A DNA stretch of 25,767 nt from a virus: positions 1 through 25,767 of the IMG/VR virus record IMGVR_UViG_3300050821_001079; one strand, given 5' to 3'. The translations under genes and the position numbers were made by a program. Each line of letters starts with the position of its first letter. Within the stretch, counting starts at the first letter, position 1. Below, one piece after another: positions 181-18,566 of this stretch. Under the pieces are notes generated by a model. The model searched no databases. It was not told the origin of the DNA and was given only the letters and a program-made list of their open reading frames with translations.

Positions 181-414
181 CTACTCCGCGATCCCGCGAG
201 AGGCACAATGCTCCTCGTCGCTGTTGATGTTCTTGCCGATCAGGGCCGCTACGGCCTGGAGGTGCTTGGACTGGCGCTGCAGATCGATCTTCTGAGCCAG
301 CGTCAGATTCGGGCTCTTGGAGCGAGCGCGCAGTTCGCGGGAGGCCTCAAGCAATTCGAGGATCCGGCGGTACTGCTCCTTGGAAACCACATAAACTTTC
401 GCGTCCTGTGCCAT
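181..414 (-). CDS. Small helical hypothetical protein of the leftward early unit
   Basis: This 77-aa frame begins MAQDAKVYVV and is rich in Arg, Leu, Glu and Gln, suggesting mostly alpha-helix (residues about 12-60). There is no membrane segment or recognisable motif. The ATG at 414 is preceded by GCGAGGAGAG at good spacing. It is the first gene after the leftward promoter at 439-468, whose spacer holds a palindromic operator, so it is probably repressible. The next leftward gene starts four bases after its stop. I do not recognise the family. Its divergent position opposite the HNH gene is where temperate phages often keep regulatory or host-interaction proteins, but nothing in the sequence shows such a role. 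Confidence 0.7.
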   Translation of the reverse strand: MAQDAKVYVVSKEQYRRILELLEASRELRARSKSPNLTLAQKIDLQRQSKHLQAVAALIGKNINSDEEHCASRGIAE

Positions 415-438: not shown

Positions 439-468
439 ACACTATCCCAAGAGGATAGCTCGAGTCAA
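439..468 (-). promoter_or_regulatory. Leftward early promoter
   Basis: Read on the minus strand, TTGACT (468-463) is followed by an 18-base spacer and TAGTGT (444-439), then CTT. The hexamers, spacer and downstream CTT match two other candidate promoters in this window (838-867 plus strand and 23481-23510 minus strand). The predicted start, near 432, leaves a short leader before the ATG at 414. The palindrome at 443-457 occupies the spacer and the edge of the -10, which suits repression. This is inferred from sequence alone. Confidence 0.55.
443..457. promoter_or_regulatory. Palindromic operator-like site 1
   Basis: TATCCCAAGAGGATA is an inverted repeat (TATCC, five bases, GGATA) with an extra flanking C/G pair. 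It is one of four matching sites in the window, all with the invariant right arm AGGATA. It overlaps the leftward promoter between its -35 and -10. Confidence 0.6.
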
Positions 469-476
469 CATAAATA

Positions 477-503
477 TTGACAATAGCGCTGGATCACTAT
501 CTT
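477..503 (+). promoter_or_regulatory. Possible rightward promoter of the first HNH gene
   Basis: TTGACA at 477-482 is a perfect -35. The best -10 is TATCTT at 498-503 after a short 15-base spacer, and it lies inside operator site 2. If it is used, transcription would begin almost at the ATG (512), giving a nearly leaderless message. The 18-base spacing seen at the other promoters gives no acceptable -10 here, so the call is weak. Confidence 0.3.
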
Positions 504-512
504 GTGAGGATA
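498..512. promoter_or_regulatory. Palindromic operator-like site 2
   Basis: TATCTTGTGAGGATA has the invariant right arm AGGATA and left arm TATCTT, one mismatch from a perfect palindrome. It ends on the first base of the preferred HNH start codon, so a bound protein would block initiation of that gene. Confidence 0.6.
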
Positions 513-832
513 TGGAGACTTTGACGTTCCAAGAAAAGCTTGATCTTAATTCAATGCCAGTCCCGGAGAGCGGATGCGTGATTTGGCTGCGATGTTTGAA
601 CGGTAATGGCTACGGCGCGCTTACGTATAATGGCATATTTTGGCTCGCCCACCGAGCCTCCTGGGCGCTGACCCGCGGAACGATCCCTCGCGGTTTGTAT
701 GTCCTGCATAAATGCGACGTGAGATGCTGCATTAACCCTGAACACCTTTATCTCGGTTCCGCCTTCGATAATGCGAGGGATTGCCAAGTTCAAAGCGGCC
801 GCGCAAAAAATATTAAGCGCCCGGGCTACTAA
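512..832 (+). CDS. HNH endonuclease (HNH_3-like)
   Basis: This 106-aa protein begins METLTFQEKL. Its N-terminal part has the ESGCVIW...GNGYG...HRASW pattern of small phage HNH enzymes. The C-terminal half carries the ββα-metal core: HKCDVRCCINPEHL, then LGSAFDNARD, with the catalytic His, metal-binding Cys/His and the Asn of the HNH fold present. These enzymes nick or cut double-stranded DNA, as free-standing homing nucleases or packaging helpers; which applies here is unknown. The frame stays open upstream to an ATG at 431, but that extension encodes the operator sites, lacks a ribosome binding site and does not resemble the family. The 512 start also has a poor ribosome binding site (GAGG two bases away). 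The gene is flanked by operator sites at 443, 498 and 834, so it is likely repressed as a unit. Confidence 0.85.
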   Translation: METLTFQEKLDLNSMPVPESGCVIWLRCLNGNGYGALTYNGIFWLAHRASWALTRGTIPRGLYVLHKCDVRCCINPEHLYLGSAFDNARDCQVQSGRAKNIKRPGY

Positions 833-833
833 C

Positions 834-848
834 TATCTTGACAGGATA
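834..848. promoter_or_regulatory. Palindromic operator-like site 3
   Basis: TATCTTGACAGGATA contains the -35 hexamer TTGACA (838-843) of the main early promoter within the palindrome. Binding here would directly occlude RNA polymerase. It begins one base after the HNH stop codon. Confidence 0.65.
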
Positions 849-867
849 TCTCCTCTTGGTGTAGCGT
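838..867 (+). promoter_or_regulatory. Main rightward early promoter
   Basis: TTGACA (838-843), an 18-base spacer and TAGCGT (862-867), followed by CTTTC. The expected start near 874 lies just before the GAGGAG ribosome binding site of the first downstream gene (ATG 890). The capsid promoter at 23481-23510 has the identical hexamers, spacer length and downstream CTTT. Operator site 3 covers the -35. Confidence 0.6.
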
Positions 868-889
868 CTTTCCTGCGAGGAGAGACCAA

Positions 890-991
890 ATGATCCGCAC
901 CATCATCGAGGAGACCATGGCGCTGGGCTCCATCGGCCTGTTTCTGGCCGTGGTCTTAGTCTGGGCCGCATATTTCACGGGAGCACTGTGA
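890..991 (+). CDS. 33-aa single-pass membrane peptide
   Basis: A short frame begins MIRTIIEET at the ATG at 890, with GAGGAG upstream. Residues about 10-30 form one hydrophobic helix (ALGSIGLFLAVVLVWAAYF). It is the first gene after the main early promoter. Its TGA overlaps the ATG of the next gene (TGATG), so the two are translationally coupled. Small early membrane peptides of this kind occur in many temperate and lytic phages and may modify the host membrane; no function can be assigned. Confidence 0.65.
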   Translation: MIRTIIEETMALGSIGLFLAVVLVWAAYFTGAL

Positions 992-1200
992 TGAAGATCG
1001 TCAGCGACTACGCCCGCCAGGAGACCGCCCTGCGGCTCCAGCGCATCCACAACGAGTTGTACGAGATCGCCAATCTCCTGGAGTTGGACACCGATCTCGG
1101 CACATTCGCAAAGGGCGTGCGCTTGGCCCAGAGCCTCTCGCGCGATGCGGGATATCAACTCGAAGGCGCCGTGGGGCGCTGCGTTTCCTGTGGAGACTGA
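991..1200 (+). CDS. Small helical hypothetical protein
   Basis: This 69-aa protein begins MKIVSDYARQ at the ATG at 991, overlapping the preceding stop. A GTG at 988 would add one residue. It is mostly alpha-helical (Arg, Leu, Glu and Gln up to residue 55) and ends with a short tail holding two Cys (RCVSCGD), which could bind metal but is too short to call a zinc finger. There is no recognised family. It lies second in the early operon. Confidence 0.7.
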   Translation: MKIVSDYARQETALRLQRIHNELYEIANLLELDTDLGTFAKGVRLAQSLSRDAGYQLEGAVGRCVSCGD

Positions 1201-1201
1201 C

Positions 1202-1369
1202 ATGGTAATTCAAATCAGGCTGGTCGGGGCGGGTGGCGAGCTGGACAAGCAAACCATCGACGTGAGCGACGACGACAGCGCCGAAGTCTCTGAGCATATC
1301 CACGAGGCAATGGCGTGTTGGGTACTTTCCCCCGGCGACACCATCATCATCACGGAGACAGCATCGTGA
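1202..1369 (+). CDS. Small acidic hypothetical protein
   Basis: This 55-aa protein begins MVIQIRLVGAG from the ATG at 1202, one base after the previous stop. The pattern suggests alternating beta-strand segments with an acidic middle (DVSDDDSAEV). The open frame extends upstream to 1145, but that part overlaps a neighbouring gene in another frame. It shares GTGA with the next gene. No known family is recognised. Confidence 0.65.
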   Translation: MVIQIRLVGAGGELDKQTIDVSDDDSAEVSEHIHEAMACWVLSPGDTIIITETAS

Positions 1370-1551
1370 GCGATTTCCGAAAGCTCGACGTTACCGTTAC
1401 CCTCACTGGCGAGCAGTGGTTTGCCGTCATCGCCCAGTGCGCCGGCAAACCCTTCTCGAAAGAGGGGCTGAAGATCTTGCGCGAGGCCGAGAAGAAACTC
1501 GGCACGACCGTGGTCAAGGCGGCAGAGGCCTGCAAGAGGGGCGTGGCATGA
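1366..1551 (+). CDS. Small hypothetical protein, GTG start
   Basis: This 61-aa protein starts at the GTG at 1366, which overlaps the upstream TGA, with GGAG eleven bases before. The sequence begins with a beta-like stretch (KLDVTVTLTGEQW) followed by helices rich in Lys, Glu and Ala. The ATGA overlap with the following gene is preserved. Function is not recognised; its size and place match many early-phage orphan genes. Confidence 0.65.
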   Translation: MSDFRKLDVTVTLTGEQWFAVIAQCAGKPFSKEGLKILREAEKKLGTTVVKAAEACKRGVA

Positions 1552-1739
1552 CCTGGGTCTATCGCAGGGCTCGCCAGGGCGACGGATATCTCTACGTCGT
1601 CGGCTATTACGCTCCCGTCAATAGAGACAGCATGACCGACTACATCTGGGAGCCAGTCCAGGATTTCACGATCGAATCGGACGCCCGCAAGCTCGTCAAC
1701 TATCTCAATGGCGGGGCCGTCTTAGTGAGCAACCCATGA
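1548..1739 (+). CDS. Small hypothetical protein, aromatic-rich
   Basis: This 63-aa protein begins MTWVYRRARQG at the ATG overlapping the upstream stop (ATGA). It is rich in Tyr and Trp with short beta-like segments (YLYVVGYYAPV) and a helical FTIESDARKLVNYLNGG segment, a fold typical of tiny single-domain phage proteins. A longer open frame starting at 1416 is only an extension over the previous gene. I do not recognise the family. Confidence 0.65.
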   Translation: MTWVYRRARQGDGYLYVVGYYAPVNRDSMTDYIWEPVQDFTIESDARKLVNYLNGGAVLVSNP

Positions 1740-2068
1740 GCCCCTCGCTCGCGTGGTTAGAGGCCTACAACGGAGGCTGTGATATGTCCAAATGGAAAGA
1801 GCCCGGCGAGGGCGAAACAATTTATCGCGAACTTTTCGGGGAAACCGTCATCGAACGAGAGGCCAGGAAGGCTCGGGAACGCCTTACCCCTCCCTCCATG
1901 GTGACAGAGCTGCCGCCCGACGCGCAGAAGGCAATCGACGAGACCGAGGTACTCCGCTCCGAGAGTCTCGTCGCGATCGCCACGCTAGAGGTGAGGCTCG
2001 AGGCCGAGCGCGCGCGCCTGCGCCTGCTTGAGGATCTCATCGAATCAGTGAGGGCGATCTATCTATGA
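1736..2068 (+). CDS. Coiled-coil hypothetical protein
   Basis: This is a 110-aa frame from the ATG at 1736, which overlaps the upstream TGA. A second in-frame ATG at 1784 (MSKWKEPGEGE, 94 aa) has a better ribosome binding site, GGAGG seven bases before it, and may be the true or an additional start. The first is preferred only because nearly every gene in this operon begins at an ATGA overlap. Residues about 60-105 form an amphipathic, Glu/Arg/Leu-rich helix likely to be a coiled coil. No enzymatic motif is seen and the function is unknown. Confidence 0.65.
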   Translation: MSPSLAWLEAYNGGCDMSKWKEPGEGETIYRELFGETVIEREARKARERLTPPSMVTELPPDAQKAIDETEVLRSESLVAIATLEVRLEAERARLRLLEDLIESVRAIYL

Positions 2069-2277
2069 CCGACGACCGCAAGATCGGAGCTCGCGTTCGC
2101 GAGGCCCGCCTCGCCGAGGGCCTCACTCAGGAGGTGCTCGCCGCCGTGCTCGATCTACGCATGATGGCGATCTCCAAGAAAGAGGCCGGCCAGATCACGA
2201 TCACCGCGCCGCAGCTCGTGAAGATCGCCAAGGCTCTCAACCGGCCCCTCACATTCTTCGTACAGGATCTCAAATGA
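2065..2277 (+). CDS. XRE-family helix-turn-helix regulator
   Basis: At 70 aa, the protein is essentially one Cro/C1-type DNA-binding domain. Helix 1 is IGARVREARLAEGL, then TQEVLAAVLDLRMMAIS forms the helix-turn-helix. TAPQLVKIAKALNRPLTFF closes the five-helix bundle. The usual acidic Trp/Glu-Asn-Gly signature after the recognition helix is replaced by KKEAGQ. The length matches single-domain phage regulators such as Cro. It is the only DNA-binding repressor candidate in the window, so it may recognise the four TATCCT-N3-AGGATA sites; its mid-operon position, far from those sites, makes that an inference. The ATG at 2065 overlaps the previous stop. Confidence 0.85.
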   Translation: MTDDRKIGARVREARLAEGLTQEVLAAVLDLRMMAISKKEAGQITITAPQLVKIAKALNRPLTFFVQDLK

Positions 2278-2531
2278 CCGACGAATCCGACCTACGCGTA
2301 ATGCAGGAGAGAAACTATAGATTCCGCGACGGCATAGTGTTGGTCCCTGCCGCGGTTCCGGGCAGTCGTGGCCCAAGAGTTTATGATTTTAACAGAGTCC
2401 TGGCCGGTGCGATGAGCCTCGACCGCTTGGATCATGAGATCGCGATAGCATCGAACCGGCTCACCGCGTTGGTGGCGGCGCGGAATTGGCTCGCCGAGGT
2501 CACCCCGATCAGAAAAAAGAAATCAAAATGA
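2274..2531 (+). CDS. Hypothetical protein with basic tail
   Basis: This 85-aa protein begins MTDESDLRVM, joined to the regulator by ATGA. An N-terminal beta-like part (residues 10-38) precedes a helical region (DRLDHEIAIASNRLTALVAARNWL). A Lys-rich end (RKKKSK) suggests contact with nucleic acid or membrane, though that is weak evidence. There is no known family. Confidence 0.65.
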   Translation: MTDESDLRVMQERNYRFRDGIVLVPAAVPGSRGPRVYDFNRVLAGAMSLDRLDHEIAIASNRLTALVAARNWLAEVTPIRKKKSK

Positions 2532-2905
2532 AACGCGCCCACATCCCGATGAAGACGAAGCTGGCCGCGGCGCTGCTGCAGACCGATGCCGGACAACATT
2601 ACATTCCCTACTTGCATTCAAAGCTTATGACGGCTGATCAGATCATCAGCCTGTTCCAGCTCGACCACTACCCGATTCGCCACGCTGATGGCGGGACCGA
2701 CGAGCCTTGGAATCTGACGTGGCTCTGGATCGGCGAGCACCGCGAGAAGACCAAGCGCGACGTGAAGGAAATGGCGAAGACGAAGAGGATCCATTTACGC
2801 GAATGGCGCGGCCAATATCACAAGAGCCTCGCCGCCAACATCGCGAGGCCCAAGCGCAAGATCCCGTCGCGCCCGTTCCCCAAAGGCAGGAAGTTCCGAC
2901 GATGA
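2528..2905 (+). CDS. HNH-like endonuclease
   Basis: This 125-aa protein has the core FQLDHYPIRHADGG, followed by DEPWNLTWLWIGEHREKTKRD and a Lys/Arg-rich C-terminus. The DH pair, the NL and the H-x3-K-T-x2-D segment follow the order of an HNH domain as seen in phage HNH proteins. Cys metal-binding pairs are absent, so it belongs to a zinc-free subgroup. The basic tail suits DNA binding. Start at the ATG at 2528 (ATGA overlap); the longer frame from 2486 lacks support. A role near the recombination genes, for example in DNA processing, is inferred from position only. Confidence 0.7.
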   Translation: MKRAHIPMKTKLAAALLQTDAGQHYIPYLHSKLMTADQIISLFQLDHYPIRHADGGTDEPWNLTWLWIGEHREKTKRDVKEMAKTKRIHLREWRGQYHKSLAANIARPKRKIPSRPFPKGRKFRR

Positions 2906-3144
2906 ACCGCTTCGATGAACTTGTTAAGAAACACTATGACGCCGTGCCGGAAGACAGGCGCTACCAGGGATTTCTTGACGAAAGTATGAGACGGGCGAAG
3001 AGCGATCTCGAGCAAGAAGTGCCGCTAGAGAAGGCTCGCTTGGTGATGTTCCGGAGCTCCAATTGGTGGTGCATGAACTTCACTGAAGCGGCAGTTATCC
3101 AGCGCTCCGTGATCCTTCAGCTCTTAGACGAGGCAAAGCTATGA
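2902..3144 (+). CDS. Hypothetical protein
   Basis: This 80-aa protein begins MNRFDELVKKHYD at the ATG overlapping the upstream TGA. It is charged and mainly helical, with a central MFRSSNWWCMNF segment and a C-terminal helix. There is no membrane anchor or catalytic motif. It lies directly before the ERF recombinase gene and overlaps it by four bases, so it is co-translated with the recombination module. Function is not recognised. Confidence 0.65.
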   Translation: MNRFDELVKKHYDAVPEDRRYQGFLDESMRRAKSDLEQEVPLEKARLVMFRSSNWWCMNFTEAAVIQRSVILQLLDEAKL

Positions 3145-4052
3145 CGGGCGACCGCAACCCGTATAGGAGCCCCACTGGAACACCGGAGGCCTTTATGGCT
3201 AACGAACCCTTCGACCCGCCCATCAACGCGCGAACCAACGATGGCGGCAAGACCGTATACAACGCAGGAGAATCACCCATGACCGCTACCGCAGTTGCCA
3301 TGCAGCCCGCCGTTCCCGAGGTCACCCACTCCGGTAACGACGCCGAGCTGCAGATGCTAGAGCGCATGTCGCTCAACCCAGCGATCGATATCGACAAGTT
3401 CGAGCGCCTCGTCGCCATGCGCGATCGCCGCGTAGCGCAGTTGGCCAAGAACGCCTTCGTCGCGGCCTTCGTGGCCGTGCAAAGCGAATTGCCCGTAATC
3501 GAGCGCAAGGGAATGATCACCGTCAAGAAAGAGGGCAGGCTAGTCCATTCGACGCCTTACGCGCAGTGGGCCGACATCAATGAGATTATCAAACCGATCC
3601 TCGGCCGGCACGGGCTCGCGCTATGGTTCAAGACCAACACAGAGGGCGAGCGACTCACTATCACCGCCATCCTCGGACATGTCGACGGTCACATCGAGAC
3701 CAATACGGTTCCGTTACCGCTCGACCGAACGGGCAGCAAGAACGAGAATCAGGCTGTCGGGTCGACTCTCACCTATGGGCAGCGCTACGCGGCGACGGGC
3801 CTGCTCAATCTCACCAGCCGCGCCGAGGATCAGGCCGACAAGGACGGCAATGGCGACGCCAAGGTGCGCGAGAAGGCCTCCGAGGAGCAGATCAAGGTGA
3901 TCCGCGACAAGATCACCGACAAGGAAAACGGAGAGCGCCGGCTGCTGACGCTGCTGAAGCTTGAGAAGCTTGAGGATCTCTTTGCCGATAAGGTCGGGAC
4001 GGTCATCGGGATTATCGAGTCGAAGAAACCCATAACCAAAGGTGCAAAATGA
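3141..4052 (+). CDS. ERF-family single-strand annealing recombinase
   Basis: This 303-aa frame contains an ERF domain at about residues 95-235. Visible features are FVAAFVAVQSELPVIERKG, YAQWADINEIIKPILGRHGL, a strand-rich HVDGHIETNTVPLPLD section and the signature GSTLTYGQRYAATGLLNL. ERF proteins form rings on single-stranded DNA and anneal complementary strands, working with a 5'-3' exonuclease. The YqaJ-type exonuclease two genes downstream fits as partner. The start is uncertain. The ATG at 3141 keeps the ATGA overlap, ATG 3195 has GGAGG five bases away, and ATG 3279 has AGGAG eight bases away. The 3279 start gives an N-terminus most like relatives I recall. The C-terminal third is charged and helical. 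Confidence 0.88.
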   Translation: MTGDRNPYRSPTGTPEAFMANEPFDPPINARTNDGGKTVYNAGESPMTATAVAMQPAVPEVTHSGNDAELQMLERMSLNPAIDIDKFERLVAMRDRRVAQLAKNAFVAAFVAVQSELPVIERKGMITVKKEGRLVHSTPYAQWADINEIIKPILGRHGLALWFKTNTEGERLTITAILGHVDGHIETNTVPLPLDRTGSKNENQAVGSTLTYGQRYAATGLLNLTSRAEDQADKDGNGDAKVREKASEEQIKVIRDKITDKENGERRLLTLLKLEKLEDLFADKVGTVIGIIESKKPITKGAK

Positions 4053-4444
4053 TCCCATCATTATCCGTCGCCGGAACGTTTCTGTTGTTTATCCTCATTG
4101 CTTTTAGCATGTGGGGATGCCCGCAGTACAACGTCTACACTCAGCGGCTCGATGGTGAGGCCGAACTTGCCAAAGCTGAATATAGCCGTCAGGTCGCAGT
4201 TCGCGAGGCGCAGGCCAAAAAGGACAGTGCCTCGTTGCTGGCCGATGCGGAAGTGGCGCGCGCACACGGTGTCGCCCAGGCGAACGAGATCATCGGCAAG
4301 AGCCTCCAGAACAACGAGGCCTACCTCAAGTATTTGTGGATCACTGACGTGACGGGCAACAAGACGCCGACCGTGATCTACGTTCCCACCGAAGCAAACA
4401 TCCCGATCCTTGAAGCAGGACGCACAGCAGGAGTCGCAAAATGA
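4049..4444 (+). CDS. Membrane-anchored helical protein, SPFH-like tail
   Basis: This 131-aa protein has an N-terminal hydrophobic segment (SVAGTFLLFILIAFSMWGC, residues 6-24). The Gly-Cys could be a lipid-attachment site but lacks a full lipobox. A long Ala/Glu/Lys-rich helix follows (about 37-85), then TDVTGNKTPTVIYVPTEANIPI. The helical part with VAQANEII resembles the region after the SPFH/band-7 domain of prohibitin-like proteins, and similar free-standing proteins occur in several phages, function unknown. It probably sits in the inner membrane with the helix in the cytoplasm or periplasm. It is placed between the two recombination genes with four-base overlaps on both sides. Confidence 0.7.
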   Translation: MIPSLSVAGTFLLFILIAFSMWGCPQYNVYTQRLDGEAELAKAEYSRQVAVREAQAKKDSASLLADAEVARAHGVAQANEIIGKSLQNNEAYLKYLWITDVTGNKTPTVIYVPTEANIPILEAGRTAGVAK

Positions 4445-5073
4445 TCCAAGGATCGGAAGAGTGGAAGCTGGCCCGCTGCGGCAAGGTCGGAGCCTCGCGA
4501 GTGGCCGACATCATGGCCAAAACGAAGACCGGGTGGGGCGCGTCGCGCGACAACTACCTGCACGAACTCCTCCTCGAGCGTCTCAATGGTGTCCCGACCG
4601 AGGGGTACAAGAGCGCGGCTATGATAAGAGGCACCGAAACCGAGCCAGAGGCCCGGAGATACTACGAGGTCATATACGACGTTGACGTCGCCCAGGTTGG
4701 GTTTATCGGACACCCGAAGATCCGCATGGCCGGCGCATCACCGGATGGTCTCGTGGGGAAGGATGGCGTCCTTGAGATTAAGTGCCCCGAAGCGAAGGAG
4801 CACGTCGCCACCTTGCTGGGGAAGGCAATCCCGGCGCGGTACCTCATACAAATGCAGTTCCAAATGGCCTGCACGGGTCGCCAGTGGTGCCATTTTGTCT
4901 CGTACCATCCTGAGTTTCCCGGGAAAATGAAAATGTTCGAGGGCGTCCTCAAGCGCGATGACGCTGTGATCAAGCAACTCGAGGACGAAGTCCGCGTGTT
5001 CCTCAAGGAACTCGACGCCAAGGTCATCGAGCTATCAGCCGCCTATGACGTGGTCCCAAAGGTGGCGGCATGA
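4441..5073 (+). CDS. YqaJ / lambda-type exonuclease
   Basis: This 210-aa protein matches the YqaJ viral recombinase family of the PD-(D/E)XK nucleases. It opens with IQGSEEWKLARCGKVGASR, has RGTETEPEARRYYE (conserved Glu), then ASPDGLVGKDGVLEIKCPE with the catalytic Asp and E-x-K, followed by YLIQMQFQMACTG and WCHFVSYHPEFP. All expected active-site residues are present. The enzyme digests 5' ends of double-stranded DNA, leaving 3' tails for the ERF annealing protein encoded at 3141-4052. Together they form a phage recombination system comparable to lambda Exo/Beta. It starts at the ATGA overlap at 4441. Length is normal for the family. Confidence 0.92.
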   Translation: MIQGSEEWKLARCGKVGASRVADIMAKTKTGWGASRDNYLHELLLERLNGVPTEGYKSAAMIRGTETEPEARRYYEVIYDVDVAQVGFIGHPKIRMAGASPDGLVGKDGVLEIKCPEAKEHVATLLGKAIPARYLIQMQFQMACTGRQWCHFVSYHPEFPGKMKMFEGVLKRDDAVIKQLEDEVRVFLKELDAKVIELSAAYDVVPKVAA

Positions 5074-5207
5074 CACGCATCAAGATTTGGATCCTTCGGA
5101 AATTGATCCACCGATGGGTGCCACAATACGATCTCTGGATCTGCGGAGACTGCGGTTGCCCGTGCCTAGCGCTCTATTTGATAGAGGCCATGGATGAAAA
5201 ACGCTGA
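5070..5207 (+). CDS. 45-aa Cys-rich small protein
   Basis: A short frame begins MTRIKIWILRK at the ATG overlapping the exonuclease stop. Its centre, CGDCGCPC (residues 25-32), holds four cysteines spaced like a metal-binding knuckle. An amphipathic basic N-terminus and a hydrophobic LALYLIEAM segment surround it. It overlaps the next gene by 14 bases. Support is the coupled start and good coding character; the function is unknown. A zinc-ribbon-like fold is a guess. Confidence 0.55.
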   Translation: MTRIKIWILRKLIHRWVPQYDLWICGDCGCPCLALYLIEAMDEKR

Positions 5208-5385
5208 CGAAAGACACGCCAACGAGGTGCGCTTTAGGCTGCATTGCCTCCAAGCGGCCATACGCCAAGCGCGCGACGCCGGCCTTACTGTCGAACTGTC
5301 GCTCGCCGCGATGGTCACACTCGGAGACAAGCGCGATACCCCGTTCGATCCTCACACCGCAGTAACCATCAGCAGGGAAACATGA
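5194..5385 (+). CDS. Hypothetical protein
   Basis: This 63-aa protein begins MKNADERHANEVRF, with GAGG six bases before the ATG at 5194. It has helical HANEVRFRLHCLQAAIRQARDAG (residues 8-30), then a beta-like end. It overlaps the preceding short gene by 14 bases and the next by four. There is no recognised family. Confidence 0.6.
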   Translation: MKNADERHANEVRFRLHCLQAAIRQARDAGLTVELSLAAMVTLGDKRDTPFDPHTAVTISRET

Positions 5386-5927
5386 GCGACGCGCCAGTCT
5401 TGATGCGGTGGCATGGATTTGCCAAGGGGCCCGGCGGCGCATTCCAGCCGCTGCCAAACTTCGCCGCGAGGTGTGACGAGCTCTACGTCGACAATGAGAT
5501 CTACGCCATCACCGCGCGTCAGCCGCGCTCGCCCAAGAGCCACAGCCACTACTTCGCCTGTGTCACCAAGGGCTGGAAGAACCTCCCTGAGGATCTGGCG
5601 AAGCGATATCCATCGCCGGATCATTTGCGCAAACAGATCTTGATCGAAGCGGGGTTCGTTGACGAGCGTACCAGGGTCGAAGACACCCCGGCCGGCGCCC
5701 GCGCCGTCGCGTCCTACATGAAAACGCTCGAGCCCCACACCATCATCGTGGTCAGCGGCAACGTCATCAAGATTTTTACAGCCCGGTCCCAGAAGGGCAC
5801 CGTCATGGGAGCCAAGGAATTTCAGGAATCAAAAGACGTGGTGCTCAACAAGATCGCCGATATGCTCGGCATTTCTGTTGAGGAGTTGACGAAGGTACCA
5901 ACCAAGCAGGAGAGCGATGATGAGTGA
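5382..5927 (+). CDS. Conserved phage hypothetical protein
   Basis: This 181-aa protein starts at the ATG at 5382 (ATGA overlap); the frame is open to 5244, but that is shadow of the previous gene. The N-terminal half is beta-rich with ARQPRSPKSHSHYFACVTKGW, then LPEDLAKRYPSPDHLRKQILIEAG. The C-terminal half has MKTLEPHTIIVVSGNVIKIFTARSQ and a helical end. The HSHYFA...GWKNLPE...PSPDHLRK pattern recurs, from memory, in rhizobial phage proteins next to recombination genes and recalls DUF1367-like proteins, which are uncharacterised. It is probably a DNA-metabolism accessory, judged by neighbours only. Confidence 0.7.
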   Translation: MSDAPVLMRWHGFAKGPGGAFQPLPNFAARCDELYVDNEIYAITARQPRSPKSHSHYFACVTKGWKNLPEDLAKRYPSPDHLRKQILIEAGFVDERTRVEDTPAGARAVASYMKTLEPHTIIVVSGNVIKIFTARSQKGTVMGAKEFQESKDVVLNKIADMLGISVEELTKVPTKQESDDE

Positions 5928-6297
5928 CAACATGCAACACGTTGGCGGGGTCGACGGGATGGGCGGTGGCGGCGGCGGCGGTGGCGGCAGCGGTTTTATC
6001 CCCGCTCCATCCAAACGTCAGCCCCACCCCGGCCCGCTCCGCGGCACTGTCTCGGCCTCGGTCGAGGATTTTGAACTGCAGCTCAAGCAACTCGATCTCA
6101 TGATCACGCTGGCGCGCGAGACCTCCAACCGGATCGTGCCGGCCGTCAAATTGGCCGAGGTGAGAGACGCAGTGCCGGGAAAATCCCCGGCCGGTCTCAT
6201 CGAGGTCATCAGAGACAAGCGGGCGAAATTAGCGAAGGGGCTCGATGAACTTCAGATATTGCTGGAGTCGATCAATCAGAGCCTGTTCCTGGAGTGA
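5917..6297 (+). CDS. Poly-Gly and helical hypothetical protein, end of early operon
   Basis: This 126-aa protein starts at ATGATG (5917) and overlaps the previous gene by 11 bases. Residues 16-25 are a Gly-rich run encoded by a GGC/GGT repeat, followed by a Pro-rich linker. Residues 45-125 are helical (Leu, Glu, Lys, Ile), likely a bundle or coiled coil. This flexible-linker-plus-helix design suggests an adaptor protein, but no family is recognised. It is the last rightward gene. Its stop lies twelve bases from the stop of the convergent late operon, with no visible terminator between them. Confidence 0.65.
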   Translation: MMSDNMQHVGGVDGMGGGGGGGGGSGFIPAPSKRQPHPGPLRGTVSASVEDFELQLKQLDLMITLARETSNRIVPAVKLAEVRDAVPGKSPAGLIEVIRDKRAKLAKGLDELQILLESINQSLFLE

Positions 6298-6309
6298 AAC
6301 GGCTGGGTG

Positions 6310-6795
6310 CTAGTGGCGGAACAGAACAAACCCGCCAAACGTGAGCAACAGTGACAGCGCGCCAATGATGGCGACCAAGATACTCGTTATGGTCCTAGTA
6401 TTCTGCCGCTGCTGCTCCGCCTGCTGGACCGCCCCGCTCTGGCTACTGACGTAGGTAGTCAGGGGCGAGAGCGTCGCATTCAGCTCGCGGATCGCAGCGG
6501 CGAGGTCGTCCTTCGTCGCATAGCTCCCACGCTCACGCTCGATCTGCGAGCGCAGCTCGTTCGCCTTCTCGTCTTTGTAAATCTGGATCTCTCTGGCGAG
6601 GCCGAGCGCCTGCTCATCCGCCCGCTGCTTGACAGCGAGCGCCTTCTCCTCGGCCGCCTTGACCTCGGAATACCGGCGGTCGCGCTCCTCAAGGAACTCA
6701 CGTTGGAGACCACTGATAACCTGCCAGTGCTCCTGCAGGGTGTCGAGCGTCCACCCGCCACCCTTCTCATCGCAGCGATGTTTAATGGCCGTCAT
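6310..6795 (-). CDS. Coiled-coil protein with C-terminal membrane anchor
   Basis: This 161-aa protein starts at the ATG at 6795 (MTAIKHRCDEKGGG), one base after the stop of the upstream 45-aa gene. The frame extends to 6846, but the coupled start is preferred. Residues about 20-100 are a long charged coiled coil. Residues about 137-157 form a single hydrophobic segment (ITSILVAIIGALSLLLTFGGFVLF) ending in RH. This is a tail-anchored topology, the reverse of an inner-membrane spanin. It lies last in the late operon within a lysis-type cluster, so a role in lysis or membrane stress is plausible but unproven. Confidence 0.72.
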   Translation of the reverse strand: MTAIKHRCDEKGGGWTLDTLQEHWQVISGLQREFLEERDRRYSEVKAAEEKALAVKQRADEQALGLAREIQIYKDEKANELRSQIERERGSYATKDDLAAAIRELNATLSPLTTYVSSQSGAVQQAEQQRQNTRTITSILVAIIGALSLLLTFGGFVLFRH

Positions 6796-6796
6796 C

Positions 6797-6934
6797 TCAC
6801 CACCATCGCTTAGTGTACTTGCGGCGGCGCCTGCGCTCGTCAACATAGAGCCGCAGGTTCGCCGCCGCCATGAACGCCGAAAGACCCACGAGCATCTGAA
6901 AGACGAACGTGGGATCCAGGTCTTTCAACAACAT
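6797..6934 (-). CDS. 45-aa small membrane protein
   Basis: The ATG at 6934 overlaps the preceding stop (TAATG). The product begins MLLKDLDPTFVFQM, with one hydrophobic helix (VFQMLVGLSAFMAAANL, residues 11-27) followed by a strongly basic tail (DERRRRRKYTKRWW). The positive tail places the C-terminus in the cytoplasm. Its tight coupling to both neighbours supports it as real. It could be a holin or antiholin-like peptide of the lysis cluster, but single-span peptides of this size are hard to classify. Confidence 0.65.
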   Translation of the reverse strand: MLLKDLDPTFVFQMLVGLSAFMAAANLRLYVDERRRRRKYTKRWW

Positions 6935-7167
6935 TACGCGACCGGTGGTGTCACCGGGGGTAACGATGACGTTAACGAGGCTGCATCAGCAGCCATCTTG
7001 CTCGACACGGCCGCGATGTTTGCGGCTGCGGCAGAGACGGCGGCGGTGTTGCCGGCGGCGAGAGCTGCAGTCAAAGCAGTGATCTCGGCCTGGACAGCTG
7101 TATCAAGCGTCGTGAAGTTCGCCGCGAGCGTTGCGACGGCAGCATTGAGGTCGTCAATCGCAGCCAT
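6934..7167 (-). CDS. Ala/Thr-rich helical phage protein
   Basis: The preferred start is the ATG at 7167 (MAAIDDLNAAVATL), preceded by AAGGAG at eight bases; the product is 77 aa. The frame is open to an ATG at 7266, adding 33 residues (MGLAKSKLLIALDAK...), but the AGGAG there directly abuts the codon. The protein is an Ala, Thr, Val and Leu-rich helix series (ALTAALAAGNTAAVSAAAANI) with a Pro-rich end. Short proteins beginning MAAIDDL are frequent in late or lysis regions of proteobacterial phages, function unknown. It sits between a DUF3309-like gene and a membrane peptide gene. Confidence 0.65.
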   Translation of the reverse strand: MAAIDDLNAAVATLAANFTTLDTAVQAEITALTAALAAGNTAAVSAAAANIAAVSSKMAADAASLTSSLPPVTPPVA

Positions 7168-7269
7168 TTCCTTAACTCCTTGTGCAAGGATCTTATTTAA
7201 TACCACGAGCGCCTGATCCATCTTGGCGTCGAGCGCGATCAATAACTTACTTTTAGCGAGTCCCATCTC

Positions 7270-7434
7270 CTAGAGCCTACCAAGCAGCACGAGAATCAGC
7301 ACGATCACGAGCACCAACCCAAGACCGCCGCCGAGGTAGGGACCGCCACCGTAGAAGGGGCCACCACCAAACCCGCTGAACCCGCCCAGCAGCACGATGA
7401 TCAAGACGATCAGTAGAATCAGTCCTAGCGACAT
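7270..7434 (-). CDS. DUF3309-like two-span membrane peptide
   Basis: This 54-aa protein is preceded by GAGG seven bases before the ATG at 7434. Two hydrophobic helices (MSLGLILLIVLIIVLLGG and LGLVLVIVLILVLLGRL) flank a Gly/Tyr/Pro loop (FGGGPFYGGGPYLGGG). This near-symmetrical layout is that of DUF3309, a small membrane family of Proteobacteria of unknown function. In this position, among lysis-region genes, it is a candidate accessory holin, but that is inference. Confidence 0.75.
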   Translation of the reverse strand: MSLGLILLIVLIIVLLGGFSGFGGGPFYGGGPYLGGGLGLVLVIVLILVLLGRL

Positions 7435-7511
7435 CTCAGCACCTCACACAGATATCTGCCGGTGCAGGCGGTACGGGCGGCAACTCTTGCACCTGACTGT
7501 AGCCGCCCGAA

Positions 7512-7673
7512 TCAGTGTCCCAAGAAGACGTGGCTCGCGCCGCCGATGATCTCGGCCAGTACCCAACACGCCAGACCGATGGCGACGAAGTACCATCCTG
7601 GCGGGTTCCACTTCGCCGCGATGACGAAGAAGACGAACGCGAACACCATCAAAATCAGTCCGATATTTCCCAT
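7512..7673 (-). CDS. 53-aa two-span membrane protein
   Basis: The ATG at 7673 has AGGAG seven bases upstream. The product, starting MGNIGLILMVFAF, has two hydrophobic segments (residues 3-20 and 27-47) joined by a short AKWNPPGW loop. Phage genomes of this kind often carry such a protein beside the lysin. A holin role is possible. About 75 bases separate its stop from the next gene and contain nothing I can call. Confidence 0.65.
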   Translation of the reverse strand: MGNIGLILMVFAFVFFVIAAKWNPPGWYFVAIGLACWVLAEIIGGASHVFLGH

Positions 7674-7683
7674 GACGTTTCTC

Positions 7684-8058
7684 CTATCTTGGGGAACTTC
7701 CTCTCCCCGGCGGTTTTGCGTCAGACGTAACCTTCTTGTCGATCAGCACCGATGGGGGCGCCTCGATGATGTTCTTGGTGGCCTCTGACGTATCCTTGGC
7801 GAGAATTTGAACGCTTGCTGGCGCGTTAGGACCAGCCACCACCTTCACGTCAGGCATTGCTGCCGCTGCCTTGGCCTGATTGGCGTGGTTGTTCTCCCAC
7901 CATGACCAGATGCCCATCACGATAGGAATGCCCGCGATGATCCAGTCCTGCAGCTCGGTGGGATTTATTCCGTACTTGGCGACAAGGATCGCAAGCGGAG
8001 TTCCTGCCGCCAGTACGATCCGGATGACGCCGGTTATTTGTTGCTGGTTCATGTTCAT
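7684..8058 (-). CDS. Putative holin
   Basis: This 124-aa protein begins [13 protein letters not shown]. Two hydrophobic segments lie at about residues 9-28 and 37-54 (WIIAGIPIVMGIWSWW). A periplasmic or cytoplasmic tail follows, containing PDVKVVAGPNAPASVQILA, a feature of rhizobial-phage holin-like proteins (Pam3-gp28 type) as I recall them. Holins open the inner membrane so the lysin can reach the wall. Its ATG overlaps the lysin stop by ATGA, the usual lysis-cassette arrangement. The tail is longer than in most such holins. Confidence 0.68.
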   Translation of the reverse strand: MNMNQQQITGVIRIVLAAGTPLAILVAKYGINPTELQDWIIAGIPIVMGIWSWWENNHANQAKAAAAMPDVKVVAGPNAPASVQILAKDTSEATKNIIEAPPSVLIDKKVTSDAKPPGRGSSPR

Positions 8059-9194
8059 TTCCCAGCCTTCGTGTTTGTGATGTAGTTGCGAACGACCACC
8101 GCGGCCATCTCACGCGCTTGGTCAAGAGTCATGGCTGGAGTCAACCCAAGCTTCGTAGCCTCGGCCTGGACCACGGCCGCAGCTTGATCCAGATCGAACT
8201 GCGTCAGGATCAGATTTGTTATCGCCTGCTGCGGCGTAGCACCGGCAGCGACCTGGGTTGAGAGCCCGGTGATCACCTGCGTGAGCGCGGCAGCCGCAGT
8301 GGGATTGGAGATCAATCCGGTCACCATGCTCATAAGTGCTGGACTGCCTAACACTACTTGTAGAAGTACGGGGATAAGTGCGCCCATTTGATCGCCTGTA
8401 AGGGTTGGTGCCGGTGTCGGCACTGGTGTTGGTGTTGGTACTGGCACAGGAGTCGGAGTAGGGACAGGGGTTGGAATTGGGATTGGAGTCGGGGCCGGGG
8501 TCGGAGTTGGAATTGGCGCCGGAGGAACAACAACAATCGGCGGCGTTGGCGGGCCATAAGGCACCGCCGAATCCAGTCCCGCGAGGAACCGAAGCAACGG
8601 AGCACATCCGATTTGCATGTCGAGTGTTGAGGGATCGAAAATTCCGTCCGATATGTACTTTCCGAGCTGTTGCTCTGAACTCGCTCCCCAAATATATGGA
8701 CTGGCCATCGGGGGGTGTCCGTGCGGACCGTCCGCGTACCCGAATCCGTTCAGCCCCTCGAGGAAAGTCAGAGCCGAGCCAGTCGACCACCCCCAAGTCG
8801 CGAACCAATGCGGCGCTTTCTGCACATCGATCAGGGCATCGAGCGCGCCGCGGTAGAACGCGTCCTCGCCGGGAGGATCATTCGGGTGATTTAAGAATGG
8901 CCCTCGGCCATGGGGTTCGATCGTCGTGACTTGACCGAGCGCCTGACCGTTCCCGAGGTAGCTGTTACAGAGGCCGAACTGGCCATCATGTTCTCGCGAA
9001 TCGATCACCGCGACCAGTGCCCATTGTTCCGGTTTGTTGAAGACCTTCGTCGCAATCCGAGTATATTTTGCCTTGTGGGGCGGTAGGCTCAGACCGGCAC
9101 AGGTCTGACCGATCTCATTGAGCCTTGATGTGTTAAAGTGCATCGCCACGAAGCGGCGGTTGTTCGCGTCGATCAGGTGCGCGATGTTCGGCAT
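8055..9194 (-). CDS. Endolysin-like muralytic protein with Pro-rich linker
   Basis: This 379-aa protein starts at the ATG at 9194 ([12 protein letters not shown]), overlapping the tail-fibre stop (TAATG); the longer frame begins with TTG. Residues about 1-213 form a lysozyme-like domain. [15 protein letters not shown] matches the family's catalytic VIxxRE pattern, followed by [43 protein letters not shown] and SPYIWGAS. Residues 214-264 are a Pro-Thr-Pro linker and 265-379 an Ala/Thr/Leu-rich helical domain of unknown role. It cleaves peptidoglycan at the end of infection, most likely together with the holin-like product of 7684-8058. No signal peptide is visible, so holin dependence is expected. 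Confidence 0.8.
8403..8552 (-). repeat. Pro-Thr-Pro repeat linker in the lysin gene
   Basis: The coding strand repeats hexamer-like units giving P-T-P-x (x is mostly Val, Ile or Ala) for about 40 residues, preceded by IVVVPPAP. Such linkers are stiff and extended, and could hold the C-terminal domain away from the catalytic part. Repeated units make length variation between relatives likely. Confidence 0.8.
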
Positions 9195-10180
9195 TATTGA
9201 ACTCGCAGGATCCAATTCATCATCATGAGGGGATTGAGGAGCGACATCGCCGCCGCTGTCGCAGAGTTGTTGATGGTGATGCCAGTTGTAGATGTGCCGG
9301 TATTTCCCGCCGACAGGGCAGCCGCTGCAGCCGCACCACCGCCGACACCAACGCCGGAATTGATAACTGGAATAGTATGCAGATGTCCCGGGTCGGTGAT
9401 CGCATGATTGTGTGCACCAACCTCTGCACCAATTTGAATGTGCGTCGATGAACCGCCAGCAGAACCAAGCGTGGTGCCAGTTACTGTCCCGCTATCTGTG
9501 ACCACCGTGCCGACCCGGCCAGCAGCCACCCCTCCCATGTTGTCCAGTCCAAGCACTGACCGCCCGCGCAGATCCGGGATGTTGAACGTGGTAACGCCAT
9601 CGCCGACACCGAATGTTGTGCCATAGATGGAAAACAGCACGGAAAACGTCGTGCGCGAGATCGCCTGCCCGAACGGCAATGCGAACGCACTGCTGGGCGC
9701 CGTAGACCCCCCGTACGGCAACATGGCCCCGACCGGGACAACGCCGGGATTACTGACCAAATAGAAGTTCTGTGCGATCCACGCGACGGCCGACGCACTG
9801 AACTTGAGTACATACGGTGTTCCGGCAATGAGCGTCGCCGCTGGGATCGCAACACCCGGAGATGTTTGAATCGGAAAGACGGTTCCGCTGTCGACCTGAA
9901 GTGTGGGCGCCGCCCCATTTGTTACGTTTGGGCTGAAGGCGATAAGCTGGCCATCGTTTGGCGTAGATGGGAGGCCCTGATTAGAAGTCAGCGTATAGGC
10001 AGTCGAGGTGCCGGCGCTCACCAGCAACCCGGAAGTATCGTCCCGAAACGAGGCCAGCCCCGCCATCATGGCACGCGCCGAGTCATTCACCGATGACGGC
10101 GCCTGACCCTCCGCCCAGTTGATCGTGGGATCTGCTGTCGCGTTCGTGGCGGCGGTCTTCGACCATTGCCAGAAGCTCAT
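9194..10180 (-). CDS. Tail fibre with phage tail collar domain
   Basis: This 328-aa protein begins MSFWQWSKTAATN with GGAGGG before the ATG at 10180. The N-terminal part has INWAEGQAPSSVNDSARAMM, typical of the particle-attachment end of such fibres, then beta-rich sequence. Residues about 150-220 form the collar domain (VGAMLPYGGSTAPSSAFALP, IPDLRGRSVLGLDNMGG). The Gly/Ala/Ser-rich C-terminus has HNHAITDPGHLH, which can bind metal ions in fibre tips. It probably forms a trimeric fibre that contacts the host surface. Four-base overlap with the transglycosylase gene upstream. Confidence 0.88.
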   Translation of the reverse strand: MSFWQWSKTAATNATADPTINWAEGQAPSSVNDSARAMMAGLASFRDDTSGLLVSAGTSTAYTLTSNQGLPSTPNDGQLIAFSPNVTNGAAPTLQVDSGTVFPIQTSPGVAIPAATLIAGTPYVLKFSASAVAWIAQNFYLVSNPGVVPVGAMLPYGGSTAPSSAFALPFGQAISRTTFSVLFSIYGTTFGVGDGVTTFNIPDLRGRSVLGLDNMGGVAAGRVGTVVTDSGTVTGTTLGSAGGSSTHIQIGAEVGAHNHAITDPGHLHTIPVINSGVGVGGGAAAAAALSAGNTGTSTTGITINNSATAAAMSLLNPLMMMNWILRVQ

Positions 10181-10989
10181 GTCGTCCCTCCACCGAACAC
10201 GCCACGCAATGCCGCCGCTCTAGCGGCAGCGAGCCCTGGCGGCACTGGGTAATTGATCTGCATTGGCGGCGGTGCAGGCATTTCCGGTCCGTTCAACAAC
10301 CCGAGTCCGGTCTGAGCAGCAGCAATAGCATTCTTTGACTGATCCTGCTGACCTAATAATCCCGGAGTGTTTGAAGTACCGGGCCACGCCGCACTTGGTG
10401 CTCGCACATTCGTAAGCAGTCCAGCCGGCGCGGCCGAGGCCGACACGCCGGTCGGAGAAAAATCACCGCCGCCCTCGACCTTGTTCTTCCAGATGTTCAT
10501 GAAGTCCTGGCTCGACACCGTGTCGACGCCACCAGGAAACTGCGCCTTGAAACTGTCCGGGATGTTTCCCCAGATCGCCTGCTTGGCCCAGCCCGGACCC
10601 TTCTGCTTGCCTTCGCCGGTCGAGGCCATGTTCTGCCACGCCGGAGCGCCCGGGTTGGCCATGTGTGCGGCCGCGCCGGCCGGGCCTTGCTGGTGCTGCA
10701 GGTAGATCTCGGTCGGGGTCGGCGCGCGCCCGTGGGTCTGGGTGAACTGGGCAATCTCCGTCGCAGTCTTTTTGGCCGCGGCCCGAGCGTTATCATTCGG
10801 ATCCCAGATGTTACCTCCGCCATACTTCTGGAACTCGCCGTTCGAGAGCTGAAACAATCCGTGATAACTGCCGGTCGAGGCCCTCGGATTCAGGCTCGAT
10901 TCGATGTGGCCGATCCGCAGCATAAGGTTCGGGTCCACCCCGTTCTGGGCGGCTGCCGCACCTATGATCGCGGAGATGTCATCAGCCAT
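10177..10989 (-). CDS. SLT-type lytic transglycosylase, virion-associated
   Basis: This 270-aa protein has an N-terminal SLT-like domain. The catalytic Glu30 lies in RIGHIESSLNP, followed by YHGLFQLSNGEF and the DPNDNARAAAK helix. It continues with PTEIYLQHQQGPAG, all in normal order for the GEWL/SLT fold. The C-terminal half (from about 170) is low-complexity, rich in Pro, Ala and Gly. Such proteins ride in the virion and locally open peptidoglycan during DNA injection. Start at 10989 with GGGCGAG upstream. Operator site 4 lies just before it. Position among internal-virion and fibre genes supports an injection role rather than lysis. Confidence 0.85.
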   Translation of the reverse strand: MADDISAIIGAAAAQNGVDPNLMLRIGHIESSLNPRASTGSYHGLFQLSNGEFQKYGGGNIWDPNDNARAAAKKTATEIAQFTQTHGRAPTPTEIYLQHQQGPAGAAAHMANPGAPAWQNMASTGEGKQKGPGWAKQAIWGNIPDSFKAQFPGGVDTVSSQDFMNIWKNKVEGGGDFSPTGVSASAAPAGLLTNVRAPSAAWPGTSNTPGLLGQQDQSKNAIAAAQTGLGLLNGPEMPAPPPMQINYPVPPGLAAARAAALRGVFGGGTT

Positions 10990-11005
10990 CGTCTCGCCCT
11001 TATGT

Positions 11006-11020
11006 TATCCTACGAGGATA
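11006..11020. promoter_or_regulatory. Palindromic operator-like site 4 (perfect arms)
   Basis: TATCCTACGAGGATA is the only site with perfectly matched six-base arms (TATCCT/AGGATA). It lies in a 50-base gap between the divergent starts of the transglycosylase gene (10989, minus) and the 58-aa membrane gene (11040, plus). It is identical in form to sites 1-3, about 10 kb away. Confidence 0.65.
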
Positions 11021-11039: not shown

Positions 11040-11216
11040 ATGTCTATTCCGCAAGCGTTTCTCTGCTTTTTCTGGTTCGGTGTACTCATGCTGTTCTTGC
11101 GGTTGGGGGTCACATACATCAACGAAGTCGCTGGAGTACCGGGGGTCATCATGGTGACGCTGCTGTTCCTCGGAGCATCAATAGCCCTCCTCCGCTTTAC
11201 GGAGGGGCGCGCGTAA
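11040..11216 (+). CDS. 58-aa two-span membrane protein opposed to the late operon
   Basis: The ATG at 11040 is preceded by AGGGAGG at five bases, an excellent ribosome binding site. The product begins MSIPQAFLCFFWFG, with hydrophobic segments at residues about 6-24 and 33-51, and ends RFTEGRA. It is the only rightward gene within 19 kb of leftward late genes. It overlaps the 3' end of the neighbouring leftward gene by 39 bases, tail to tail. A perfect palindromic operator lies 20 bases upstream. This suggests a moron: a small gene expressed separately from the late genes, perhaps in the lysogen or early, such as a superinfection-exclusion membrane protein. No promoter hexamers are clear. Confidence 0.6.
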   Translation: MSIPQAFLCFFWFGVLMLFLRLGVTYINEVAGVPGVIMVTLLFLGASIALLRFTEGRA

Positions 11217-16833: not shown

Positions 16834-18566
16834 CAGCGATCTCCCTGTCCAGGAACCGCGTCAGGCGCATGCACGCCCTGTGCGTAGGTCCACACCGTGC
16901 CGAACGGGATGCGCAGATGCGCCTGCGCATAACGGGTCTCCGCTCGCTGTGGCACCAACCCCTGCGCGTTGACCACCTGTTCCGCAGTATAGACAACCGG
17001 CGACTGCGCGGTGTCACGCAGCCCGAGGCTACCGAAACACCCAGGCGCGTCCGTCATCGGGCGCAGAAATGAGATCCACACCCGGTCCAGGAGATCCTGC
17101 GCCGAGCTCTCAAGTACGGCCTCCAGGTTCGGCCCGGAATAGAACCCGAGCGCATTGTTGTTATCAAAGGCGGCCAACCGCACCGTCGCCTGCGCTGAGA
17201 TGGTGTCGAGCGAGAACCCGAGCTGATCGAGCGATCCGCCGATCGAGCCCGTCCCGGTCGAGGTGAACGTCGTCCCGATCAGATCGATGTGCGTAGAATC
17301 GATGATGTTGAAGCGGAAATTCCCAGCCGTTAGTCCGCCTGTGACATTGTAAACCTCGACCGTGTTTTCGATGTTGAGGTTGGTGTTGGATGGCGGCGTG
17401 CCTGCAGTAAGACCGGGCACCAATGTGCAGCGCTGCCGCCCCGCCGTTCCTGCAGCAACCACCGAGATCGTGATAATCCCGGGCGCGATCGGATCGAGCG
17501 CTTCGAGCGTGAGGCCCGGTTTAGCCAGATAGGTCAGGAACTCGCTCGCCTGCGCGACGATCGTCGACCATCGCCCATTATCCCCAAGTGCCCAATCATA
17601 GACCAACATCTTGTCAGCGAGGCCGGCCGCGCCAGATTTTGACTTGTATTGCCAGAACACCCGCGTCGACATCGGGTCAGTCCCAGCGATAAATAGCTGC
17701 AGATTGTTCGTATCCAGATCTGCGAAGAACGTGGTGTCGACGCGCTGCTTCCCAATCGGGGTCGGATAGCCGCCGCTCTGGATCATCTTGAACCCTTGCG
17801 GCGAGTAGAAAAACACTTTGTCGCCGGCCGTGATCGACGAGTATTGGCCGTAGATGCCGTCCTGAGTGGATATGCGCAGAATATCAAACACCACCGCAGA
17901 ACCCGGCGCATAGATCAGCGTGCGGATCGACTGATCCTGGAAGATGATGCCGTACTGATCACCGCCGCGGATGTCGTGCACCGCACCGCCGTCCGGGAGA
18001 TCCTGGAAATCGGCCTGACCAACCCCCGGCGTCCACGTCGTAGGCGCATTGAGATCAGACCACTGCACCCGGTTCGGAAACCCAAGTATCCCACTCAGCA
18101 CGATAAACCGGTTAATGATCGCGATGTGGCTAGCCTGCGGCGGAGTTCCACCTAGATCGAGAAACGTCGCCGAAATGCCCAAATTGTATACCTGCGGATT
18201 GACGTTCTCCTGAACCGCGATAACCAAGTTGTTGAACTGTGCAAATTGCCAGTTATCGGTCGAGATCAGCGCCGAATACGGGCCACCCCCTTGCGACACA
18301 TTGGTCCAGGCGAACGTCGTGTTGTTGAGCAAGTACAGGTTCGTCGCCGTCCCGGCGAAAATCACCACGGTATTATCGGCCATGCGCGCAAAGATGCACC
18401 CGCGACACGGACCCGGCAGCGCCTGCGTCAACTCAACGAGCGACGGAAACGGGCCGTAGCCGTCCTGGCGAGGCACAACATTCGTTGCGATCGTGGCGTA
18501 GGGCAACGCGATCGCCGAGATGTCCGGCGACCAGTCTTGAAACGTGAGTAGCCCTGCATCTGGCAT
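16833..18566 (-). CDS. Large tail / packaged-DNA stabilisation-like protein
   Basis: This 577-aa protein starts at the ATG at 18566 (TGATG overlap). WSPDISAIALPYATIATNVVP and GYGPFPSLVELTQAL open a beta-rich region with repeated strand-turn units (NNTTFAWTNVSQGG, NRVQWSDLNAPTTWTPG, DQYGIIFQDQSIRTLIYA, DKVFFYSPQGFKMIQ). This resembles the propeller-like tail nozzle or stabilisation proteins (P22 gp10-type) of podoviruses. Residues about 362-446 look like an inserted beta module (VEVYNVTGGLTAGNFRF, TGTGSIGG). Position next to the adaptor-like gene fits a tail that plugs the portal. Assignment by pattern only. Confidence 0.72.
   Translation of the reverse strand: MPDAGLLTFQDWSPDISAIALPYATIATNVVPRQDGYGPFPSLVELTQALPGPCRGCIFARMADNTVVIFAGTATNLYLLNNTTFAWTNVSQGGGPYSALISTDNWQFAQFNNLVIAVQENVNPQVYNLGISATFLDLGGTPPQASHIAIINRFIVLSGILGFPNRVQWSDLNAPTTWTPGVGQADFQDLPDGGAVHDIRGGDQYGIIFQDQSIRTLIYAPGSAVVFDILRISTQDGIYGQYSSITAGDKVFFYSPQGFKMIQSGGYPTPIGKQRVDTTFFADLDTNNLQLFIAGTDPMSTRVFWQYKSKSGAAGLADKMLVYDWALGDNGRWSTIVAQASEFLTYLAKPGLTLEALDPIAPGIITISVVAAGTAGRQRCTLVPGLTAGTPPSNTNLNIENTVEVYNVTGGLTAGNFRFNIIDSTHIDLIGTTFTSTGTGSIGGSLDQLGFSLDTISAQATVRLAAFDNNNALGFYSGPNLEAVLESSAQDLLDRVWISFLRPMTDAPGCFGSLGLRDTAQSPVVYTAEQVVNAQGLVPQRAETRYAQAHLRIPFGTVWTYAQGVHAPDAVPGQGDR

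Follow-up and report, generated by a model that had tools for sequence, protein, structure and literature searches.

Four near-identical palindromes in a podovirus fragment: a predicted operator set that brackets an HNH gene and reaches a distant membrane-protein gene

Introduction

In phages with CI and Cro type regulation, such as lambda and P22, near-identical short palindromes lie over divergent early promoters, with a helix-turn-helix (HTH) protein encoded nearby. One repressor can also act through a series of operators at promoters that lie beyond the immunity region, as with the conserved inverted repeats of phiC31 and the c1 operators of P1. Repressor sites outside the immunity region are likewise found in the cluster A mycobacteriophages, where the stoperators are asymmetric, number 20-30 per genome, are oriented with transcription and lie mostly outside promoters (PMC6550527). 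In the immI region of P22, sieA lies between genes 16 and 9 and encodes an inner-membrane protein that blocks DNA entry (PMC10883804). Free-standing HNH homing endonuclease genes occupy intergenic positions in T4 and other phages, and the homing endonuclease I-TevI represses itself through an operator (PMC2988022). Caulobacter and its phage phiCbK have XRE regulators in common, which read common sites (PMC10688885).

At the locus described here, as in the lambda/P22-type sets and in those of the Rhizobium phages RHph_Y1_10 and RHph_N3_2 reported below, near-identical palindromes lie at divergent early control regions and an HTH protein is encoded nearby; the locus differs from these sets in having a late-region site 10 kb off, a different palindrome, and an HNH gene that splits the early set. 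Compared with phiC31 and P1, it has only four sites, of unrelated sequence. An earlier reading of this DNA, made from the sequence only, had likened the sites to stoperators, a comparison that fails here: the four sites are palindromes directly upstream of genes, and their symmetry, number and position rule out a stoperator reading. Like sieA, the late-region gene encodes a membrane protein and lies beside the ejection-protein genes of a podovirus. However, its product has 58 residues and no detectable sequence relation to SieA, and the gene lies between gp20-like and gp16-like genes, with a putative operator in common with the early region. Unlike the T4-type HNH genes, the HNH gene lies exactly between two copies of the putative operator, one of which reaches into its start codon. 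What is new here is the exact bracketing of the HNH gene by two of the sites, and the distant site before a two-helix membrane-protein gene that opposes the late operon.

Results

The virus record is linear and 25,767 bases long, and all of it was analysed (hereafter, the window). It is probably a fragment of a virus genome. The genes of the late region point leftward, and their products include a capsid protein (PF13252, E 6.5e-89), virion proteins, an SLT transglycosylase and a tail-collar protein. From about 0.9 kb, the early genes point rightward and encode an XRE protein, an ERF annealing protein, a YqaJ exonuclease and a NinB-like protein, while a second early operon runs leftward and off the record end at position 1 (Table 1). 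Judged by the capsid, the nearest named phage is Rhizobium phage RHph_Y1_10 (54% identity), whose record has an annotated integrase. Since neither an integrase nor a CI-type repressor was identified in the 25,767-base fragment, we deduce temperance from the relatives.

Table 1. Features of the window and positional counterparts in related phages
Position	Strand	Feature	Basis or remark
181..414	-	Leftward operon gene 1, 77 aa, without known family	Family/profile searches
441..468	-	Leftward early promoter Pleft, TTGACT-16-GATAGT	Promoter scan; 9/12 consensus bases
443..457	.	Operator-like palindrome 1, TATCCCAAGAGGATA, over leftward promoter spacer and -10	Pattern, promoter and matrix scans
498..512	.	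Operator-like palindrome 2, TATCTTGTGAGGATA, last base is A of HNH start codon	Pattern scan; 18-bp direct repeat
512..832	+	HNH_3 endonuclease gene, 106 aa, between palindromes 2 and 3	PF13392
834..848	.	Operator-like palindrome 3, TATCTTGACAGGATA, TTGACA inside; HNH stop codon one base away	Pattern scan
834..892	+	Rightward early control region, inverted copy of 412-472, weak -10	Sequence self-comparison
869..883	.	Degenerate palindrome TTTCCTGCGAGGAGA; alone not above chance	Matrix scan, RNA fold
2065..2277	+	XRE/HTH_3 protein, 70 aa, Cro-sized, candidate reader	Profile and structure comparison
10177..10989	-	SLT transglycosylase (gp16-like ejection protein) gene, divergent from 11040-11216	
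11006..11020	.	Operator-like palindrome 4, TATCCTACGAGGATA, perfect arms, distant site	Pattern scan
11040..11216	+	58-aa protein, two predicted membrane helices, antisense to late operon	GGGAGG 5 nt before ATG
L079 18210-18395	-	Positional counterpart of 11040-11216, at SLT gene start, antisense to late operon	
L081 12500-12682	-	Positional counterpart of 11040-11216, at SLT gene start, antisense to late operon	
L100 about 1219-1449	-	Positional counterpart of 11040-11216, at SLT gene start, antisense to late operon	
L106 about 2734-2964	-	Positional counterpart of 11040-11216, at SLT gene start, antisense to late operon	

The sequence-only reading had listed four sites of the form TATC(C/T)(C/T)-N3-AGGATA and had seen no other full match in the window. 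Our scan agrees on both counts. The pattern TATCYYNNNAGGATA matches exactly at the four palindromes of Table 1 (called sites 443, 498, 834 and 11006 by their first base), a fifth listed match being site 11006 read on the opposite strand; there is no further full match elsewhere in the 25,767-bp record and none in 100 dinucleotide shuffles. The right arm is identical in all four sites. In a sequence-blind test, which compared any 6-bp palindromic arms with spacers of 0-9 against 100 shuffles, the palindromic family of these sites ranks first in the window (log10P -3.1; best of the shuffles, -2.2). All four sites lie in non-coding gaps, which on our gene map make up 5.6% of the window and hold 5% of all 15-mers (p about 6e-6). 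A search of the literature for the consensus TATCTTGACAAGATA found no match.

With a matrix built from the four sites, the sites themselves score 21-23.5 bits, and the next match in the window, at 869-883, scores 11.7 bits, inside the range of the shuffle maxima. This near match and another at 849, which corresponds to site 443 in the inverted copy of the promoter, were ruled out as full operators because they do not rise above the shuffle maxima; the former is possibly a weak site or a leader hairpin. The sites were also ruled out as mere -10 elements, given that the right arm is identical in 4/4 and that the left-hand site is out of -10 register with its gene.

Three of the sites had been placed on early promoter elements, a claim that holds for one of them and is less firm for the others. 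Pleft was called by the promoter scan, and site 443 spans its spacer and -10. No promoter was called at 498, 834 or 11006, and the promoter linkage of these three sites rests on position and inspection. Site 498, correctly placed by the earlier reading at the start of the HNH gene, begins 15 bp after a TTGACA (at 477), as seen by inspection. Site 834 had been assigned to the -35 of the main early promoter; it does contain a TTGACA (at 838), but a poor hexamer stands where the corresponding -10 would be. The two control regions, 412-472 and 834-892, are imperfect inverted copies (37-nt arms 76% and 18-nt arms 94% complementary). Both have the TTGAC, the same distance to the -10 and, directly ahead of the first ATG, the leader GCGAGGAGAGACCA; they differ in the position of the palindrome, which lies at the -10 on the left and at the -35 on the right.

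The intergenic ORF between sites 498 and 834 carries an HNH_3 domain (PF13392, E 3.3e-10). Together with their flanks, these two sites form an 18-bp direct repeat (496-513 and 832-849, 89% identity). The first copy ends within the HNH start codon, and the second starts on the last base of the stop codon.

The fourth site, with perfect arms and about 10 kb off before a rightward gene, was found as described earlier. It sits in a 50-bp gap directly upstream of an RBS and ATG, and ends 19 bp before the ATG of the 58-aa ORF, which has the gp20-like gene (11178-13028) on one side and the SLT gene on the other. Small hydrophobic ORFs of 60-76 aa occupy the same place and orientation in four relatives (L079, L081, L100 and L106), where their start overlaps the SLT start region. 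The 58-aa protein and its L079 counterpart show a weak but visible similarity (9/30 identities, E 0.007 in one comparison). Upstream of the four counterpart ORFs we saw no operator-like site common to the rest of the genome. The 58-aa protein gave no PHROG match below E 0.1 and no tblastn match in phages, and it showed no sequence relation to any known exclusion protein.

The sequence-only reading had named a lack of conservation of the sites in related phages as an outcome that would refute it. Among 34 relatives gathered by capsid, YqaJ and SLT searches, none carries any of the four sites by direct search, and none was found to share the early region. Searches with the protein of 181-414, the ERF protein and the XRE protein returned no close early-region relative, a search with the promoter-leader pattern gave no match, and a capsid search of bacterial genomes gave no relative. 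De novo counting of palindromes in the coding-rich relatives was swamped by GC-rich arms. Two phages related to the window phage by capsid or ERF have palindrome sets of their own, which are likely operator sets: RHph_Y1_10 (L154) has four GTNACACCN3TGTNAC sites at 16036, 16069, 17316 and 17351, flanking an HTH gene (16947-17282), and RHph_N3_2 (L155) has five CGGTAAAAAAACCG-type sites at 30974, 31003, 32307, 32342 and 32366, in two early clusters. Four to five palindromes near the early promoters, differing in sequence, thus seem usual in this phage group. No convincing late-region copy of its own palindrome was seen in either phage.

The XRE protein is a true member of the HTH_3 class, and searches with window proteins recognised no other HTH protein. 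Its gene lies 1.2 kb downstream of site 834. A blind scan for pairs of TATCYYN3RRGATA yielded 36 viral and at least 115 bacterial loci (at least 151 in total). In the 151 loci listed, XRE seeds found seven HTH proteins, four of them within 70 bp of the sites (p about 2e-5); these XRE/CI-like genes are in L119, L175, L182 and L254, of which L119 is not independent, one of the two seeds having been taken from it. The 15-mer of site 834, TATCTTGACAGGATA, adjoins the repressor genes of L175 and L182. HTH_3-class proteins therefore probably read this palindrome class elsewhere, judging from gene neighbourhood. None of the window proteins occurs in the 36 viral contigs, most of which are unrelated uses of similar palindromes. 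The recognition helix of the window XRE protein reads R-M-M-A-I-S-K-K-E, whereas those encoded beside the same palindrome read K/Q-K/R-A-A-I-H/N-K-Y-E, so that it differs at two of the three usual base-contact positions (M, M versus K/R, A) and has one lysine in common with them. A single-sequence fold of the XRE protein was set aside for its low confidence (pLDDT 60).

Discussion

We consider it likely that the four palindromes are the operators of one dimeric HTH repressor of a temperate podovirus, which would silence the early promoters and a distant gene. The predicted set would most likely consist of ordinary phage immunity operators with one unusually distant member. This reading is favoured because the exact sites exceed chance and all lie in non-coding gaps upstream of genes, because the Pleft spacer and -10 are overlapped and the early operon encodes a Cro-sized HTH_3 protein, because the palindrome class is enriched beside XRE/CI genes and Rhizobium phages have sets of their own, and because the membrane-protein gene has positional counterparts in four relatives. 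Against it stand the lack of the sites in all 34 relatives, the uncalled promoters at three sites, a fragment in which neither an integrase nor a CI-type repressor was identified, the mismatch of the XRE recognition helix, and the relatives' membrane-protein gene, which has no such operator. The absence in the relatives is not decisive, because the searches gave no close early-region relative and phage immunity regions readily change hands. The earlier proposal of a repressor with distant targets is thus retained, with three early targets and one distant target, and parts company with the stoperators.

On this operator-set reading, the bound repressor would cover Pleft, the promoter and start codon of the HNH gene, and the -35 of the rightward early promoter, and would thereby silence the HNH gene along with the two early operons. 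Through the fourth operator it would shut a small promoter 10 kb away that drives the two-helix membrane protein against the late operon, so that this protein would follow the same lytic/lysogenic switch as the early genes. If this is right, one 15-bp site ties a late-region membrane protein to the early-promoter switch, and a single site is a simple route to immunity control of a distant gene.

The repressor itself would be either the XRE protein, which is Cro-sized, or a CI-type protein encoded past the left end of the record. The CI-type protein is a serious candidate, at least as likely as the XRE protein, and the probability left over by these two goes to host or other readers. The XRE protein, which the sequence-only reading had named as a possible repressor alongside one encoded outside the window, is a more tentative choice. 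Being Cro-like and made from the rightward operon, it would turn down the distant gene and the early promoters in the course of infection. This proposal falls within the operator-set reading, and the two confidences overlap. Its size and its standing as the one recognised HTH protein speak for it, as does the position of its gene downstream of site 834 in the same operon, which would give feedback. Among solved structures it comes closest to the controller proteins C.AhdI and C.BclI, both of them palindrome-reading dimers. However, its recognition helix is unlike those of the repressors beside the same palindrome, its gene is about the seventh in the operon and not the first, and other repressors may exist in the left operon, which runs off the record. 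It is a real HTH_3 protein, but nothing ties it to the sites, and it may read a variant of the palindrome.

Another possibility would be that the sites belong to a host regulator tapped by the phage, so that the early genes and the membrane protein follow the state of the host. The fragment has no proven repressor for the sites, and the XRE sites common to Caulobacter and phiCbK (PMC10688885) provide a precedent. We nevertheless regard this as improbable, given that sites overlapping early promoters are classically those of a phage repressor.

It also appears improbable that the three early sites are operators and that site 11006 is a chance match or a relic without function. The counterpart gene of the relatives has no operator there, and no promoter was detected at 11006. 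However, this site is the only one with perfect arms, no match is expected from the shuffles, and it lies immediately before an RBS and ATG. Since the relatives have the gene without the operator, the membrane-protein gene seems older than its operator. Superinfection exclusion is our best guess for the role of its product, from place and topology. An antisense two-helix gene whose position is kept in several relatives is a candidate exclusion protein outside the P22 group.

Returning to the operator set, the HNH gene gives the impression of a cassette inserted into the operator region, with one operator copy left on each side. The simplest history we infer starts from a divergent promoter region with operators, which the HNH cassette later split while one operator was duplicated; a relative without the HNH gene was not found. 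The gene between its putative operator copies offers a clear case in which to ask how a mobile nuclease gene meets phage repressor control. We would give little credence to a more elaborate scheme, in which a homing cassette entered the immunity operator, duplicating it and placing its own start codon on one copy, so that the prophage repressor controls the nuclease, cutting is aimed at the operator regions of competing phages (homing tied to immunity), and the same repressor also controls a distant membrane exclusion protein. It is equally doubtful that the HNH protein itself reads the palindrome and represses its own and the neighbouring promoters: the exact fit of the ORF between the direct repeats, the first of which ends within the ATG, and the autorepression by I-TevI count for it, but HNH_3 proteins are not known to form dimers on short perfect dyads, the distant site is left unexplained, and the same palindrome class elsewhere accompanies XRE genes (as searched with XRE seeds).

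Two minor observations concern the leader and the palindrome class. In the rightward leader, a 9-bp hairpin with a GCG loop is possible at 866-886 and would cover the AGGAG (RNA fold -11.6 kcal/mol, z -2.4, equalled in 3/200 shuffles); it may start upstream of the transcript, and RNA folding gave no such hairpin in the left leader. Outside the window, palindromes of the TATCTTG(A/T)CAAGATA type lie upstream of XRE/CI-type repressor genes in L175 (5412-5529), L182 (539-644), L254 (3798-3880) and L119 (2815-2876). In L131 (4197-4266), a GC-rich inverted repeat with A/T flanks, which resembles a bidirectional terminator, is enclosed by TATCCTGTCAAGATA and TATCTTGACAGGATA in mirror arrangement.
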